DNA of 64,000 nucleotides from Nitrospira sp. CR1.3. GTDB taxonomy: Bacteria; Nitrospirota; Nitrospiria; Nitrospirales; Nitrospiraceae. The notes beneath the pieces were generated by a model that worked only from the letters and a program-made list of their open reading frames with translations, had not been told where the DNA came from and did no database searches. Below, piece by piece: positions 18,034 through 26,832 of this stretch. The first letter of the stretch is position 1, and the number at the start of each line of letters is the position of its first letter. The position numbers and the translations under genes were made by a program. The DNA lies in assembly GCA_014055525.1 (NCBI GenBank), contig WIAH01000005.1, positions 1 to 64,000 of the forward strand. Direction: 5' to 3'.

Positions 18034-18780
18034 TTACTCCTCCGTCGACCCGAAGGGAAAGGCCTTGAGGATTTCTTCCACACCGTAGTGCGAGAGCTCG
18101 TCGACGGTGACAAATCCCCAGCCGTGATGGATGAAACCGGAAAAATCCTCGGTCATCGGTTTCTGTCGCTCATAGTAATTGCCGACCCACAAGACCTGCC
18201 CGTCCGCAGCCACGGCTTTCACTTCGAATCCCACCGAAGCCGGAGGATTCGCCCCCAGCCTGCTGCCGACCCGTTCTTGATAGACGGACACTTGCCCCAT
18301 CAAGGCGGCGTCGGCGTGAAGTTTCCTGGCCAGCTCGGCCGCTGTCGATTCCGGGGTCGGCTGGTTTGAGCCTCCGGTGGAGGAGGCCTTGACCTTCGCC
18401 GCATCGGCCGGCGGCAACACGGTCACGCCCTTCAGATTTCGCAACCGTACCCAGAACAGTTGGGTCACTTTTTCGCCCGCATAGCCCGGCACCACCACGG
18501 TTTGGCGGAGATGCGGTTCGACATTCGTCTGCACTCCTACGGAAATGTCGGATGCTCGGGCTCCTCGCGGCGCCGACATGTAAGGATTCCCATCATCTCG
18601 AATTTGAGGAGTGCTCAGCGTGTCGAACGGCAGCAGCGCCAGGGTTCGGACCTGGTAACGAGGCAGGCCGCTCGAAGCCTGTGTGGTGACTTTCGAACCG
18701 CTGCAGCTGGTAGTCATTCCAACTGCCAAGACCAAGAGCACGACCGCCAGGGCGATATCTCTGTAACCGGATTCCCTCAC
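18034..18780 (-). CDS. Lipoprotein of unknown family inside the his cluster
   Basis: A type II signal peptide ends at the lipobox VGMTTSC, with Cys at residue 26, after a hydrophobic run. The mature part starts with a flexible Ser/Thr-rich segment, then RTLALLPFDTLSTPQ. A later ELARKLHADAALMGQVSVYQERVG resembles the alpha/beta fold of TolB-N or CsgG/GNA1162-like lipoproteins that count periplasmic factors. It overlaps hisH by four bases and is three bases from hisA, so it is co-transcribed with histidine genes although no role there is known. I do not recognise a precise family. Confidence 0.75.
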   Translation of the reverse strand: MRESGYRDIALAVVLLVLAVGMTTSCSGSKVTTQASSGLPRYQVRTLALLPFDTLSTPQIRDDGNPYMSAPRGARASDISVGVQTNVEPHLRQTVVVPGYAGEKVTQLFWVRLRNLKGVTVLPPADAAKVKASSTGGSNQPTPESTAAELARKLHADAALMGQVSVYQERVGSRLGANPPASVGFEVKAVAADGQVLWVGNYYERQKPMTEDFSGFIHHGWGFVTVDELSHYGVEEILKAFPFGSTEE

Positions 18781-19454
18781 TTCCAGACTCCGAAATTTTT
18801 GATCAAGCGCAGGCCGACCGACTGACTCTTTTCCGGGTGGAACTGGCAGGCCACGACGTTATCTCGCCAGATGCTTGACGCGAAGGGGATACCATAGCTC
18901 GTTGTAGCGGCAATCGTCGACCGATCGTCAGGATCGACGAAATAGGAATGCACAAAATACCAATCGGATCCGTCGGCAATGCCGTTGAACAGCGGACATC
19001 CACGCTGAAGATTCACCTGATTCCAACCCATATGAGGGACCTTGAGCTGAGGGACAGGCTCCGGCCCTGCTGGTGCCTGTCCCTGTGATCGAATGGGGAC
19101 AGGCACCCTGTCGGGAGCCTGTCCCCAGGGAAACTTCTTGACCTTGCCGGGAATAATGTCGAGTCCCTGGTGCCGGCCGAATTCTTCGCTCTCGGTGAAG
19201 AGCAGTTGCAGGCCCAAGCAGATACCGAGGAACGGTTTCCCCGACCGGATGCTCGATCGAATGGCCTCGACAAGACCGTAGCGCTCCAGATTCCCCATGC
19301 AATCGCCAAAGGCCCCGACGCCCGGCAGGACGACCCGGCTCGCATTCCCGATCACGACGGGATCGCGCGTCACAACCGCCTGATGCCCGACCGCCTCAAA
19401 GGCCTTGGAGACGCTGCGCAGATTCCCCATGCCGTAATCGATAATCGCAATCAT
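18777..19454 (-). CDS. hisH: Imidazole glycerol phosphate synthase, glutaminase subunit
   Basis: HisH releases ammonia from glutamine for HisF. The frame is 225 residues, about 20-25 longer than usual. The nucleophile elbow GICLGLQLLF and the later CQFHPEKS supply the Cys-His-Glu triad. The opening IAIIDYGMGNLRSV and the VPHMGWNQV segment are family-typical. Between KVKKFP and LKVPHMGW lies an extra Pro/Gln/Arg-rich stretch encoded by a double REP-like hairpin (19051-19126) that keeps the frame. The insertion falls in a surface loop region, so the enzyme may stay active. It is the first gene of this his cluster. Confidence 0.95.
   Translation of the reverse strand: MIAIIDYGMGNLRSVSKAFEAVGHQAVVTRDPVVIGNASRVVLPGVGAFGDCMGNLERYGLVEAIRSSIRSGKPFLGICLGLQLLFTESEEFGRHQGLDIIPGKVKKFPWGQAPDRVPVPIRSQGQAPAGPEPVPQLKVPHMGWNQVNLQRGCPLFNGIADGSDWYFVHSYFVDPDDRSTIAATTSYGIPFASSIWRDNVVACQFHPEKSQSVGLRLIKNFGVWK
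19051..19126. repeat. REP-like double hairpin inserted in hisH
   Basis: Two adjacent palindromes are present: GGGACAGGC (19051-19059) pairing with GCCTGTCCC (19075-19083), and GGGGACAGGC (19095-19104) pairing with GCCTGTCCCC (19117-19126). The paired arrangement and the conserved GGGGACAGGC head are typical of REP/BIME units mobilised by RAYT transposases. It lies within coding sequence and adds about 25-27 codons without shifting the frame. Confidence 0.85.
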
Positions 19455-21839: not shown

Positions 21840-21883
21840 TTCGTAGGGGTAGATCGCCTCCGAAGCATCCCGTATTATGGACC
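21840..21883 (+). promoter_or_regulatory. Shared upstream element of the Ig-repeat lipoprotein (copy 1)
   Basis: TTCGTAGGGG at 21840-21849 and GTATTATGGACC ending at 21883 recur, with nearly the same spacing, ahead of the paralogue at 25545-25590. Each lies about 40-100 bases before its start codon. Conservation in otherwise diverged upstream DNA suggests a promoter or regulator site, although recent duplication of the gene with its leader is the alternative. Confidence 0.4.
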
Positions 21884-21933: not shown

Positions 21934-24273
21934 TTGAAACCTACTATGAAGCGTCATCCGGGTCTTGCAGCAAAGTGTTGTGGTGCTGGCGTCATCGCTG
22001 CCATCGCCCTAACCCTGTACGGCTGCAATGATGTCTCTTCGGTGTCGGCCCCTCCACCAGGGCCGACAGGCTTGGCGATCGCCTCCGGTTCACCGCTTCC
22101 GAGCGGCAGCATCGGAATACCCTACAGCACCACATTGGCGGCATCAGGCGGCAATCCAGGCTACACATGGAGTCTCGCAAGTGGTTCGCCCGCTTTGCCC
22201 AACGGCCTCAACTTGAGCCCGGCCGGCGTGATCAGCGGAACTCCGACGACGATACAAACCGTCACACCAAAATTCAGAGTGGTCGACACGTCGACACCGA
22301 CTCCGCAGGGTGCAGAAAAAGATCTGACAATCTCAATCAATGCTGTCCCCCAGCCGTCGATTTCATTGCCTGCGCTGCTCCCCAACGGCATCGTCGGCCA
22401 GGTCTATCCTTTGACCCAGTTGACGGCCACGGGAGGAACTCCGCCCTACACCACTTGGTCAGTGAATCCTGCCTTGCCGAACGGACTGACCTTCAGCACC
22501 GCCACTGGTACGATTAGCGGCACCCCTACGGTAAGCAGCAACCAGCCACACACCTTCTCGGTGACCGATTCCTTCTCACCAACGCCTCAAACCGGCACCA
22601 GATCATACACGCTGACGATCAGTCCTGCACCGCTGACGTTGACGATCACAACGAATTCGCTGCCGAACGGCACAGTCACTCAAGGCTACAGCGCCAATCT
22701 TGCAGCGACGGGCGGCACGCCGCCGCTGACTTGGAGCATTGTGAGTGGATCCTTGCCACCAGGGCTTCAGCTAAATGCCAACACCGGAGCGATCACAGGT
22801 ACACCATCAACTGCTGGAACATTTACCCCCACTTTCCGGGTACAGGACGTCGGGTCGCCTCAGCAGTCGAACCAAAAACCCCTTTCGATTACGATCAACC
22901 TTCCAGCTGCGCCGAATATTACGACTACTTCGCTTCCGAATGGGTCGTTTAACAACTCCTACAACCAGACTCTACAAGTGACGGGCGGGATTGCTCCTCT
23001 TACCTGGGGTGTCATCACTGGAGCCCTCCCACCTGGTTTGGGTCTGAATGCGTCGACTGGACAGATTTCAGGGACGGCTACCCAGACAGGCACATTCAAC
23101 TTCACGGTCCAGGTCACCGACGTGATACCGCAATCTGACTCTCAGGCCCTGTCTATCACGATTACAGCACCTTCTCCTCCACAAATCACGACCTCATCGC
23201 TACCTAACGGGACTGTCACGCAAGTTTATCCCAACACTACCTTGTTGGCATCAGGAGGTACTGCTCCTCTGACTTGGGATCCAGTGGTCAATCCTGCCTT
23301 GCCGAACGGATTATCTTGGAATGCAAGCACTCACACAATCAGCGGTACTCCCCTGAACGGGAGTCAAGGTACAACGTCACACACGTTCACCGTCAGAGAC
23401 TCCACTAATCCAGTTCAGACGGCAACCAGGACGCTGTCGCTGACAATCAATCTGCCTGCCCCACCGAATATCACGACAACTTCTGCGTCGCTTCTGCCCA
23501 ACGGAACAGTCACTCAGGCCTACAGCCGAACTCTGCAAGTCAGCGGAGGTACAGGACCATTTACGTGGAGCATCCAGACTGGGTCACTTCCTACTGGAGT
23601 AACCCTCGCTTCTTCAACTGGTGTGATTTCCGGAATACCTTCTGCAGCAGGCACGTTTAATTTCACACCGCAAGTTACGGACTCGCTGTCACAAACCGAC
23701 CCCACTCCGCCAGCTCTGTCAATTACCATCGGTCTCCCGGCCCCACCCAACATCACGACAACAACTCTGCCGAACGGGACAGTCGCATCAGCCTATAGCC
23801 AAACCGTGCAAGCCGCTGGAGGAACGGGTGCCATCACATGGACAATCAGCGCCGGAGCATTACCCCCACCCTTGACCATAAATCCGACCACGGGAGTGAT
23901 TTCTGGTATACCGACCACAGCAGGCCCGTTTAATTTCACTGTACGGGCCACGGATACCTTAACCCAATTTGACGACCAGTCTTTCTCAGTGACAATCAAT
24001 CTTCCCGCACCGCCAAATATTACGACCACTTCGCTCCCAAATGGGGTGGCAGGGCAAGCTTACAGCCAGCAGGTCCAGGCCACGGGAGGAATCGGAAACC
24101 TTACTTGGGGAATCAGCGCGGGGGCGCTACCGCCAGGCTTGAACATAGATCAGGCAACAGGGGTGATTTCGGGTACGCCAACCACGGCAGGCCCGTCCAA
24201 TTTTACTGTTCAAGTGACAGACACAATACCTCAATCAGACGCGGAGGCCCTCTCAATCACGATCGCACCATAG
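21934..24273 (+). CDS. Lipoprotein with eight tandem putative-Ig (He_PIG-like) repeats
   Basis: The 779-residue product has a lipoprotein signal with the lipobox LTLYGC followed by NDVSSVS. The rest is eight repeats of about 85-95 residues. Each has the pattern LPNGxVxQxY, then ATGGTxPLTWS, LPPGLxLxxxTGxISGTP and FTVxVTD, matching the putative immunoglobulin-like He_PIG (PF05345) family. Such proteins are usually surface-exposed adhesin-like or matrix proteins. The last repeat ends at the stop, with no anchor or autotransporter domain. Base composition is more even than in its neighbours. A paralogue with four repeats lies downstream beyond a RAYT element. The function is not established. Confidence 0.85.
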   Translation: MKPTMKRHPGLAAKCCGAGVIAAIALTLYGCNDVSSVSAPPPGPTGLAIASGSPLPSGSIGIPYSTTLAASGGNPGYTWSLASGSPALPNGLNLSPAGVISGTPTTIQTVTPKFRVVDTSTPTPQGAEKDLTISINAVPQPSISLPALLPNGIVGQVYPLTQLTATGGTPPYTTWSVNPALPNGLTFSTATGTISGTPTVSSNQPHTFSVTDSFSPTPQTGTRSYTLTISPAPLTLTITTNSLPNGTVTQGYSANLAATGGTPPLTWSIVSGSLPPGLQLNANTGAITGTPSTAGTFTPTFRVQDVGSPQQSNQKPLSITINLPAAPNITTTSLPNGSFNNSYNQTLQVTGGIAPLTWGVITGALPPGLGLNASTGQISGTATQTGTFNFTVQVTDVIPQSDSQALSITITAPSPPQITTSSLPNGTVTQVYPNTTLLASGGTAPLTWDPVVNPALPNGLSWNASTHTISGTPLNGSQGTTSHTFTVRDSTNPVQTATRTLSLTINLPAPPNITTTSASLLPNGTVTQAYSRTLQVSGGTGPFTWSIQTGSLPTGVTLASSTGVISGIPSAAGTFNFTPQVTDSLSQTDPTPPALSITIGLPAPPNITTTTLPNGTVASAYSQTVQAAGGTGAITWTISAGALPPPLTINPTTGVISGIPTTAGPFNFTVRATDTLTQFDDQSFSVTINLPAPPNITTTSLPNGVAGQAYSQQVQATGGIGNLTWGISAGALPPGLNIDQATGVISGTPTTAGPSNFTVQVTDTIPQSDAEALSITIAP

Positions 24274-24470
24274 CGTATCATTCTTGTCTTGCACTTGCAG
24301 AACTCCTCTTTCGTGTTCAACTATCTTTTCGCTTGATGAGCGGTGCTCAGCTCGGTTCTTTCTCCCTCAAAGCGAAATTCTCCTCGAGTGGCGTAAATGA
24401 CGGGAAGCATTGTTCGCCGGAACAAGACCCGCAAATCGCTGACGTTGTGTGGCCGGGTCAAACTGAGGAC

Positions 24471-25489
24471 GGGGTCAGGTCTTGACTTTGCCAATTCCGC
24501 GCGGTACCGTGCCGGCGGCATGGCACGGCCATTACGACTAGCCTTCGCCGGGGGCCTGTACCACGTCACGGCCCGGGGCAATGAGCGCAAGGCCATTGTC
24601 CGGCAGGATAACGATCGCGCCCGGTTCGTGGACACCCTCGCGACCATGGTGGATCGGTATCAGGTGCGCTGCCATGCCTGGGTCTTGATGGACAATCATT
24701 ATCATCTGCTGCTGGAAACGCCGTCGCCCAATCTGTCGCTCGCCCTCCGCCATCTCAATGGGGTCTACACCCAAGCCTTCAATCGACGGCATCGACGCGT
24801 AGGTCATCTGTTTCAAGGACGGTTCAAGGCCATCGTGGTGGAGAAGGAGGCCCACTTACTAGAGTTGTGCCGCTACGTCGTGCTGAACCCCGTAAGGGCA
24901 GGGATAGTGCCGCACCCAAAGGCCTACCCGTGGAGTAGCTATCGGGCGACGGCGGGAATGGCAACGGCGCCGGCCTGGTTGACGGTGGACTGGATCCTTG
25001 AGCAATTTGGTCAACGGAGAGGAGTCGCGCAAGACAAGTACCGGCAATTCGTGGCGGAGGGCATCCAGGAGCCGACGCGGCCCTGGGAGCACCTCGTGGG
25101 GCAGGTCTATCTCGGTAGCGACGCGTTTGTGCGCGACGTCCAACGATACGGAACCCGTCAGATGACGGAGACCGAAATCCCACGGGCGCAACGAGATCCA
25201 TACTGGCTATCCTCTGAGAAGGTCCTGGCTCGCGTGGCAGAGGAGTTTGGAGTGAGTCTCAACGAGTTGGTTCGACCCACCCGACGCCCGAGCGAAGCAC
25301 GGGAGGTGGCGTTCTATGGGCTCCGGCGGTGGGCTGGAGAGCGCTTGTCAGAGGTGGCGCGGCGGATGGGCGTGACCTACAGCGCGGTCAGCCGACGGGT
25401 AAGTGCTGTCGAACGGCGACTCGCAGAGGACCGGCGCTGGCGGGAACGGTTGGCAACATTCCTAGTTGTCAAACTCAAGACCTGACCCC
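24471..25489. mobile_element. RAYT element with terminal inverted repeats
   Basis: A 1019-base unit is bounded by GGGGTCAGGTCTTGACTTTG (starting 24471, extending to 24494) and its inverted partner at 25466-25489. The two 24-base ends differ at two positions. The transposase stop codon falls inside the right repeat. No target duplication is evident. REP-associated tyrosine transposases normally sit between such REP ends and are thought to move or maintain REP sequences. The element sits between two paralogous lipoprotein genes. Confidence 0.88.
24520..25485 (+). CDS. REP-associated tyrosine transposase with DnaA-like C-terminus
   Basis: The Y1 HUH transposase domain starts MARPLRLAFAGGLYHVTARG, with HUH-like HYHLLLETP following HAWVLMDN and a later VGHLFQGRFKAIVVEKEAHL segment. 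The catalytic tyrosine is expected in LLELCRYVVLNPVRAG. The frame runs upstream to 24397, but that stretch crosses the left repeat; the ATG at 24520 begins the conserved domain (321 residues). The C-terminal 90 residues (ARVAEEFGVSLNELVRP, RRMGVTYSAVSRRVSAVERR) resemble the DnaA domain IV helix-turn-helix found in extended RAYTs. Confidence 0.9.
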   Translation: MARPLRLAFAGGLYHVTARGNERKAIVRQDNDRARFVDTLATMVDRYQVRCHAWVLMDNHYHLLLETPSPNLSLALRHLNGVYTQAFNRRHRRVGHLFQGRFKAIVVEKEAHLLELCRYVVLNPVRAGIVPHPKAYPWSSYRATAGMATAPAWLTVDWILEQFGQRRGVAQDKYRQFVAEGIQEPTRPWEHLVGQVYLGSDAFVRDVQRYGTRQMTETEIPRAQRDPYWLSSEKVLARVAEEFGVSLNELVRPTRRPSEAREVAFYGLRRWAGERLSEVARRMGVTYSAVSRRVSAVERRLAEDRRWRERLATFLVVKLKT

Positions 25490-25544: not shown

Positions 25545-25590
25545 TTCGTAGGGGAAGACCTCGTGAGAAAGACTTCTGTAGTATGAGACC
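25545..25590 (+). promoter_or_regulatory. Shared upstream element of the Ig-repeat lipoprotein (copy 2)
   Basis: TTCGTAGGGG at 25545-25554 and GTAGTATGAGACC at 25578-25590 repeat the pair found ahead of the first paralogue, with a spacer two to three bases different. It lies after the right end of the RAYT element and about 45-90 bases before the start codon at 25633. See the copy at 21840. Confidence 0.4.
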
Positions 25591-25632
25591 GTTTAAGGCG
25601 AGACCTACTTGGCTGGCTATCGACTGAGAACC

Positions 25633-26832
25633 ATGCGAATTCGAGATTTGACCACAGGCCTCTGCTACGCGGTCCTGGCGCTGGGATTCTCCATTTTGGC
25701 CGGGTGCAACGACGTCTCATCGGTCTCGAATACCGCGCCAGCCGGACCTGGGGCACTGGCCATTGCTTCACTCTCCCTACCGGATGGCGTGGTTAATCAG
25801 CCCTACGCCACCACGGTCGGCGGGTCAGGAGGAATCTCGCCCTATAATTGGTCTGTTTCGCCGCCGCTGCCACCCAACCTCGACCTGGATCCTGCTACAG
25901 GAGCGATTAGCGGCATACCAATCGCTAGCGGTACCAGCACCCATACGTTCACCTTGCGGGATTCCTCGACGCCGACGCCGCAATCTACACAGGTTACTCT
26001 CACTCTTACGATTAATGCTGCTCCAGCCGTCCTTGCAATCACGACCACATCGCCGCTCCCCAGTGGCAATGTCGGTCAGGCCTATAGTCAGACCGTGCAG
26101 GCCACGGGTGGGACTGGGGCTCGAACGTGGAGCATCATCACGGGAACACTCCCCCAGAATTTGAGCTTGAATTCTGCGACCGGAACGATTTCCGGTACAC
26201 CGACTGCCACAGGAACGTCATCTTTCACGGTCAGGGTTGCCGACGCGGCGGGACAAGCGGACCAGCAGGCACTCTCAATCCTGATCAATCCCGCCGTCCC
26301 GCCGACTATCACCACCATGTCGCTGCCCGGGGGAACCGTGGGTCTGCCTTATAGTCAAACCTTGGCGGCTACCGGAGGCACAGGAACCCTGGCCTGGACC
26401 CGTTCTGCCGGATCGCTCCCGGCAAATCTTGCATTGAGTTCTGCTGGAATCATCTCGGGCACACCAACCAACACCGGCACTTCGAACTTCACGGTGAGGG
26501 TCACCGACGCCTTGTCACAGTCCGATACACAGGCCCTCTCGATCACCATCAGCGCCGCATTGACGATCACGACTACATCCCCCCTGCCAAACGCGAGGGT
26601 GGGCCGCTCCTACAACCAAACACTGCAGCGTTCCGGCGGCACTGCCCCCTTTACCTGGTCAGTTTCAGCTGCGCTCCCATCAGGGCTTCAATTGGCCGCT
26701 TCCACCGGAGTTATCTCCGGCACGCCGGCGAACGGCACACTTGGCACGCACACAAGAACGTACACCGTTCAAGACTCCTCGACCCCCAGACAGTCGTTCA
26801 GCAAGTCACTGGATCTGACGATTACGAACTAG
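25633..26832 (+). CDS. Lipoprotein with four tandem putative-Ig (He_PIG-like) repeats
   Basis: This is the shorter paralogue (399 residues from the ATG at 25633; the frame extends to a TTG at 25609). The lipobox FSILAGC is followed by NDVSSVS, identical to the larger paralogue. Four repeats of about 80-90 residues follow the pattern LPxGxVGxxY, ATGGTG, LPxxLxLxxATGxISGTPT and FTVRVTD. It is predicted to be lipid-anchored, with the repeats outside the cytoplasm. The shared signal, upstream element and repeat unit indicate duplication with loss or gain of repeats. Ligand and function are unknown. Confidence 0.82.
   Translation: MRIRDLTTGLCYAVLALGFSILAGCNDVSSVSNTAPAGPGALAIASLSLPDGVVNQPYATTVGGSGGISPYNWSVSPPLPPNLDLDPATGAISGIPIASGTSTHTFTLRDSSTPTPQSTQVTLTLTINAAPAVLAITTTSPLPSGNVGQAYSQTVQATGGTGARTWSIITGTLPQNLSLNSATGTISGTPTATGTSSFTVRVADAAGQADQQALSILINPAVPPTITTMSLPGGTVGLPYSQTLAATGGTGTLAWTRSAGSLPANLALSSAGIISGTPTNTGTSNFTVRVTDALSQSDTQALSITISAALTITTTSPLPNARVGRSYNQTLQRSGGTAPFTWSVSAALPSGLQLAASTGVISGTPANGTLGTHTRTYTVQDSSTPRQSFSKSLDLTITN

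Follow-up and report, generated by a model that had tools for sequence, protein, structure and literature searches.

The window analysed here, the whole stretch of 64,000 nucleotides from Nitrospira sp. CR1.3, contains a complete Y1-transposase element located between two lipoprotein genes. The genes and features of the locus are the following.

18777-19454, minus strand: hisH, with a 23-aa in-frame insert at 19050-19126
21934..24273, plus strand: lipA, an Ig-repeat lipoprotein, 779 aa from the first possible start
24455..24460, plus strand: a further GGGTCA, 10 nt beyond the left end of the element
24471..25489, plus strand: the whole TIRtron element, 1019 bp, inverted ends 22/24, single copy in the genome
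24471..24494, plus strand: left terminal inverted repeat (TIR), GGGGTCAGGTCTTGACTTTGCCAA
24482..24487, plus strand: predicted -35 hexamer TTGACT, TIR positions 12-17
24505..24510, plus strand: predicted -10-like TACCGT, after a 17-bp spacer and followed by 9 nt and then ATG
24520..25485, plus strand: TIRYT transposase gene, 321 aa, intact; PF01797, Bac_DnaA_C; NF047646 over the cut-off
24559..24879, plus strand: HuH/Y1 catalytic domain, with H60-Y61-H62 and Y119 invariant
25216..25401, plus strand: DnaA-domain-IV-like helix-turn-helix domain (Pfam; fold match 3pvp and 1j1v, TMt about 0.8)
25466..25489, minus strand: right TIR, GGGGTCAGGTCTTGAGTTTGACAA in the minus-strand reading, holding the transposase stop
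25483-25485, plus strand: transposase stop TGA, inside the right TIR
25609..26832, plus strand: lipB, an Ig-repeat lipoprotein, 407 aa

The two 24-base ends of the element are identical at 22 of 24 positions, the mismatches being positions 16 and 21, while the best end match obtained with shuffled flanks is 13-16/24. Both ends carry GGGGTCAG, which fits the motif GGGGWSAS. The transposase frame is unbroken from the ATG at 24520 to the TGA at 25483-25485, within the right end. An earlier note on this DNA had described both the two differences between the ends and the presence of the stop in the right one, and these observations are borne out. Genome-wide repeats were counted by pattern searches; in the window genome (3.46 Mb in 35 contigs, about 93% complete) the exact end 14-mer GGGGTCAGGTCTTG occurs only at the two ends of the element. 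Two further Y1 genes of this genome, of 226-227 aa, have different inverted ends, GGGGACATTGTAC and GGGGTCGGGAGTCG. A solo end of another TIRtron class, GGGGTCAAGTCTTGCAATCATACA, lies at G000:C13:128711-128724 (L003) in the same genome and is probably the remnant of a lost element, and two ends GGGGTCAGTTCTTGAGTTTRC that are nearly identical and have similar flanking sequence, both near contig ends (G000:C22:40545, L004, and C31:358, L006), possibly represent an unassembled repeated TIRtron.

The transposase matches Pfam Y1_Tnp (4.3e-11) and Bac_DnaA_C (1.8e-6), the latter with 28.3 bits, slightly below the Pfam cut-off of 31.5. It also scores 90.7 bits with the NCBIfam model REP_Tyr_transpos NF047646 (REP-associated tyrosine transposase; cut-off 80). 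Two alignments both show H60-Y-H62 and Y119 to be invariant. A search of the PDB by sequence alone gave no match for the transposase, and a fold search with its AlphaFold model (mean pLDDT 77.5) returned the E. coli RAYT 4er8 first, followed by IS608 and ISDra2. DnaA domain IV (3pvp, 1j1v) is also found among the fold matches, and on the predicted model these are assigned to the C-terminal part of the protein.

Taken together, the element is a TIRYT or TIRtron of subclass 2.1 as defined by Quentin et al. 2018 (PMC6006769), having a RAYT-type Y1/HuH core, GGGGWSAS TIRs, a Bac_DnaA_C/HTH C-terminus and no adjacent REP-like hairpins. Di Nocera et al. 2013 (PMC3733652) gave the name TIRYT to RAYT-like genes placed between long terminal inverted repeats with the motif GGGGWSAS; the window element shares with that description the RAYT-like Y1 transposase, the TIR motif and the position of a TIR near or overlapping the gene, and differs from it in that its TIR is not amplified in the genome. 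Most TIRYTs fall into subclass 2.1, which was present in 14.9% of the strains surveyed and is characterised by Bac_DnaA_C or HTH extensions and the absence of REPs (PMC6006769). The window element resembles the TnpAY1 proteins of this subclass in its HuH/Y core, its C-terminal extension, the lack of a REP nearby and TIRs of the form GGGG[AT][CG]A[CG]. With the IS200/IS605 elements IS608 and ISDra2 it shares the Y1 HuH fold, mobility and defined ends; those elements, however, have subterminal hairpins with guide pairing and no C-terminal DnaA-like domain, whereas the window element has inverted terminal repeats, in whose arms no stable hairpin with a guide sequence was found.

The earlier note had called the locus a complete RAYT element. 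Completeness, defined ends and the protein family hold, and the ends are TIRs and not REPs; the name is unfit for the element, whose ends consist of linear inverted repeats and have no REP hairpins. A classical RAYT or REPtron would be a domesticated, host-maintained Y1 transposase whose flanking REP hairpins it has dispersed as REPs, a reading that draws on the NCBIfam score above the RAYT cut-off and on the HuH fold being nearest to 4er8. Indeed, the catalytic fold is that of the RAYT/TnpAREP enzymes of E. coli (4er8), Stenotrophomonas and Marinomonas (PMC8266576), and their cleavage at CT/CA matches the TCA^ site proposed below. Unlike in REPtrons, though, REP hairpins with a GTAG foot are missing at the ends of the window element, which start with GGGG, and single TIR arms fold like shuffled sequence (-1.19 against -1.30 kcal/mol). 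Moreover, the end has no dispersed copies in the genome, as searched with the exact 14-mer, and near-identical related copies sit at different sites as whole units. We consider a REPtron very improbable. A cryptic REP hairpin of the form GTCA-loop-TGAC within the TIR arm was also considered; it is present in the window, but among left arms only 14% retain it and among right arms only 13%, and it was rejected.

The hairpin that the earlier note had linked to the element through a related head lies in hisH, where the palindrome GGGGACAGG..CCTGTCCCC occupies 19095-19126. The 23-residue insert consists of two GGGACAGG-headed palindromes and is missing from hisH of G001, G003 and G006. The similarity of the heads (GGGG[T/A]CAG) is real; the hairpin itself belongs to a different, REP-like family. 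Hairpins of about 35 nt are found elsewhere in the same genome, for example GGGGACAGGCACC..GGTGCCAGTCCCC, at G000:C6:18053, C9:35441 and C29:167779, and GGGGACAGGCNC with at most one mismatch gives 129 matches there against 68 for reversed controls. No cognate transposase was found for this family: none of the 237 transposases collected has hisH-type palindromes on both sides. The hisH palindromes are thus ruled out as ends of the window transposase, forming a separate family of self-complementary hairpins of about 35 nt, and the insert, which is REP-like and lies within a biosynthetic gene, is separate from the TIRtron.

On either side of the element, lipA and lipB each encode a He_PIG-repeat protein whose lipobox is GCNDVS, and they have in common a short leader, TTCGTAGGGGNAGA / CCCTTACATTCGTAGGGGTAGA, at 21840-21853 and 25545-25558, confirming that the element separates two Ig-repeat lipoprotein paralogues. 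Rfam gave no match at the leader copies of the window or around the gene pair; CCCTTACATTCGTAGGGGTAGA is conserved upstream of the lipoprotein array in relatives (L098:6594, L099:9149, L100:4614). At L098, L099 and L100 this array lies upstream of dnaE and has 3-5 paralogues, the window genome having two. The element might have taken part in the duplication, one of the two possibilities raised in the earlier note, since it sits exactly between the paralogues. But three genomes of the same genus, G001, G003 and G006, hold 3-5 GCNDVS-type Ig-repeat lipoproteins at the same place, upstream of dnaE, without any transposase. In the tree, furthermore, lipA groups with copy 1 of G001/G006 (99/99) and lipB with their last copy (96/94), the identities being 78% and 77% in the first case and 71% and 68% in the second. 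As each gene has its own orthologues, the duplication predates the species split and the element came later, and a role in the original duplication is rejected. The other possibility is retained: from gene order and phylogeny we infer that the element inserted upstream of dnaE, between lipoprotein genes whose duplication was already complete, in this Nitrospira lineage. The congeners lack the element at this site, the intergenic DNA being too diverged for the junction to be aligned base-precisely. The middle lipoprotein copies of G001/G006 are missing from the window genome, and the element may have been involved in their later loss.

Homologues were sampled from 396 genomes of the phylum and by a scan of 84,980 species, giving 237 homologous genes. 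Among these, 151 distinct homologues have a TIR pair with at least 14/24 matches, nearly all beginning with [AG]GGGTCA; the invariance of positions 6-7 is partly imposed because the TIR alignment anchor demanded CA there. In 61 related genomes there are 54 occurrences of the 14-mer GGGGTCAGGTCTTG, compared with one of the reversed control. The stop codon falls in the outermost 30 nt of the right TIR in 113/127 well-placed elements, and in 46 the stop is the TGA of TGACCCC itself. Copies that are 97-99% identical and lie at different sites (L244/L248, L230/L062, L209/L210, L284/L294 and L231/L137) cease to match no more than about 10 nt from the ends of their TIRs. The locus of L248 is found without the element in two genomes, with a junction differing by about 60-70 bp; no clean empty site was found for L244, where the DNA on the right side belongs to a variable RHS/YD-repeat-like region.

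The TIRs themselves may show a relation to the protein. In their inner part the two arms of one element are 0.74 alike and the arms of nearest relatives 0.57, for elements pre-selected for matching arms. Variation of the inner TIR tracks the C-domain when the N-domain is controlled for (partial r 0.126, p 0.005), a small effect in which the right arm overlaps the coding C-terminus; the reverse test, inner TIR against N-domain given the C-domain, gives a partial r of 0.029 (p 0.16). Quentin et al. doubted that the C-domain takes part in recognising the ends (PMC6006769), whereas the weak correlation found here is a hint that the DnaA-like domain may read the inner TIR. We also considered that the window transposase could be a recent chimera, in which the N-domain of a Nitrospira class with short C-terminus was joined to a DnaA-like C-domain, with a hybrid TIR. 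Over residues 147-216 the protein shares 46-62% identity with the nearest short-class proteins and 21-47% with the long class, and the outer TIR resembles the short class while the inner TIR, ACTTTG, resembles the long one. The tree of the N-domain, on the contrary, places the window protein outside the short class, with the full-length L129 as best sister (56/83), and an AU test of its joining the short class gave p 0.38, by which that placement is neither established nor rejected. We regard the chimera as unlikely.

The left TIR also appears to serve in expression of the gene. In the window the predicted promoter has the layout TTGACT-17-TACCGT-9-ATG. Across the family the distance from the left TIR to the ATG falls into two classes, mostly 45-49 and 53-56 nt; the -35 box starts at TIR position 12 in 72/76 elements of the first and at position 19 in 40/51 elements of the second. 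The end of the -10 box lies 6-8 nt before the ATG in 106/127 elements, and the mean best promoter score is 8.43, against 2.80 for shuffles. This family-wide pattern suggests that the -35 box of the transposase promoter lies inside the left TIR, and the closeness of the -10 box to the ATG implies, but does not show, that the transposase mRNA is leaderless. We found no description of a TIR promoter or a leaderless mRNA in the open-access literature on such elements.

A further pattern is seen at the borders of the elements. We scanned 289 ends for perfect tandem duplications with a unit of 8-45 bp and compared their endpoints with the positional background, about 0.1 endpoints per position; this null was used because a flank-swapped one is inflated, the swapped flanks retaining their own head copies. 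The endpoints form two sharp peaks, at TIR positions 1-4 (23 ends) and 6-9 (25 ends). In the 6-9 group the peak is at TCA^G, and the units, mostly of 12-19 bp, are made up of the GGGGTCA head and 5-12 nt of flank; the group comprises 13 left and 12 right ends from several phyla, 16 of the 25 having zero microhomology. The 23 related ends of the 1-4 group have units mostly of 8-12 bp and often show microhomology of 1-2 G; these duplications may be due to slippage, and their endpoints are not accounted for by a single cut site. The 6-9 endpoints are consistent with cleavage by the transposase after CA. Since TnpAREP enzymes cleave at CT and, in Marinomonas, at CA (PMC8266576), the fixed side TCA^G would agree, by analogy, with their specificity. 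Replication slippage at G-rich ends, or errors of assembly, could instead have produced the duplications without any nicking, as the microhomology often seen at positions 1-4 and the draft-MAG origin of many of the sequences would suggest. Such causes fit poorly with the lack of microhomology in 16/25 duplications ending at positions 6-9, with the spread of these duplications over left and right ends and over several phyla, single-contig genomes included (L248 in G239), and with a background density about 50 times lower; we judge them rather unlikely. At the window element itself there is no clean end duplication; the extra GGGTCA at 24455..24460 is possibly an old remnant of an end event, yet without a clean duplication. 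Tandem end duplications of either group were not found described in the open-access literature on such elements, and the part of PMC3733652 available does not describe end duplications, a cleavage site, a TIR promoter or leaderless expression.

We therefore propose, with good though not full confidence, that a TIRtron, an autonomous mobile element consisting of a single HuH/Y1 transposase gene and TIRs headed by GGGGTCA, inserted between older paralogues and that it combines a leaderless promoter in the left TIR, DnaA-IV-like binding of the inner TIR, nicking at TCA^G, end scars and self-repression. The sequence-based part of this explanation consists of the intact gene, the exact ends, the element-free array in three congeners and the orthology of the paralogues. 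In the proposed mechanism the left TIR would supply the -35 box, giving a leaderless transposase mRNA, and the C-terminal DnaA-IV-like domain would bind the variable inner part of both TIRs as a duplex. The HuH/Tyr119 domain would nick after the CA of the GGGGTCA head. If the resulting end break is staggered and both overhangs are sometimes made double-stranded before rejoining, GGGGTCA together with 5-12 nt of flank would end up duplicated in tandem. Because promoter and binding site would coincide in the TIR, the transposase probably acts as its own repressor. For the more specific reading, in which the end duplications are transposase scars mapping cleavage to TCA^G and the TIR unites the binding site and the -35 promoter of a leaderless mRNA with built-in autoregulation, we see even chances. 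If the scars do map cleavage to this point of the GGGGTCA head, HuH enzymes of this kind would cut at TIRs and not at hairpins, a consequence to which the same even chances apply.

Taken by itself, the window element is an ordinary representative of a family that is known but poorly characterised, a single mobile element between older paralogues. The interest lies in the family-level patterns, drawn from sequence comparison only; TIRYTs are widespread. The end scars and the TIR promoter bear on the way in which a HuH nuclease, an enzyme of single strands, acts on terminal inverted repeats, and they offer a candidate cut site, a layout of binding sites and a model of regulation, all testable with a single purified protein plus short oligonucleotides.
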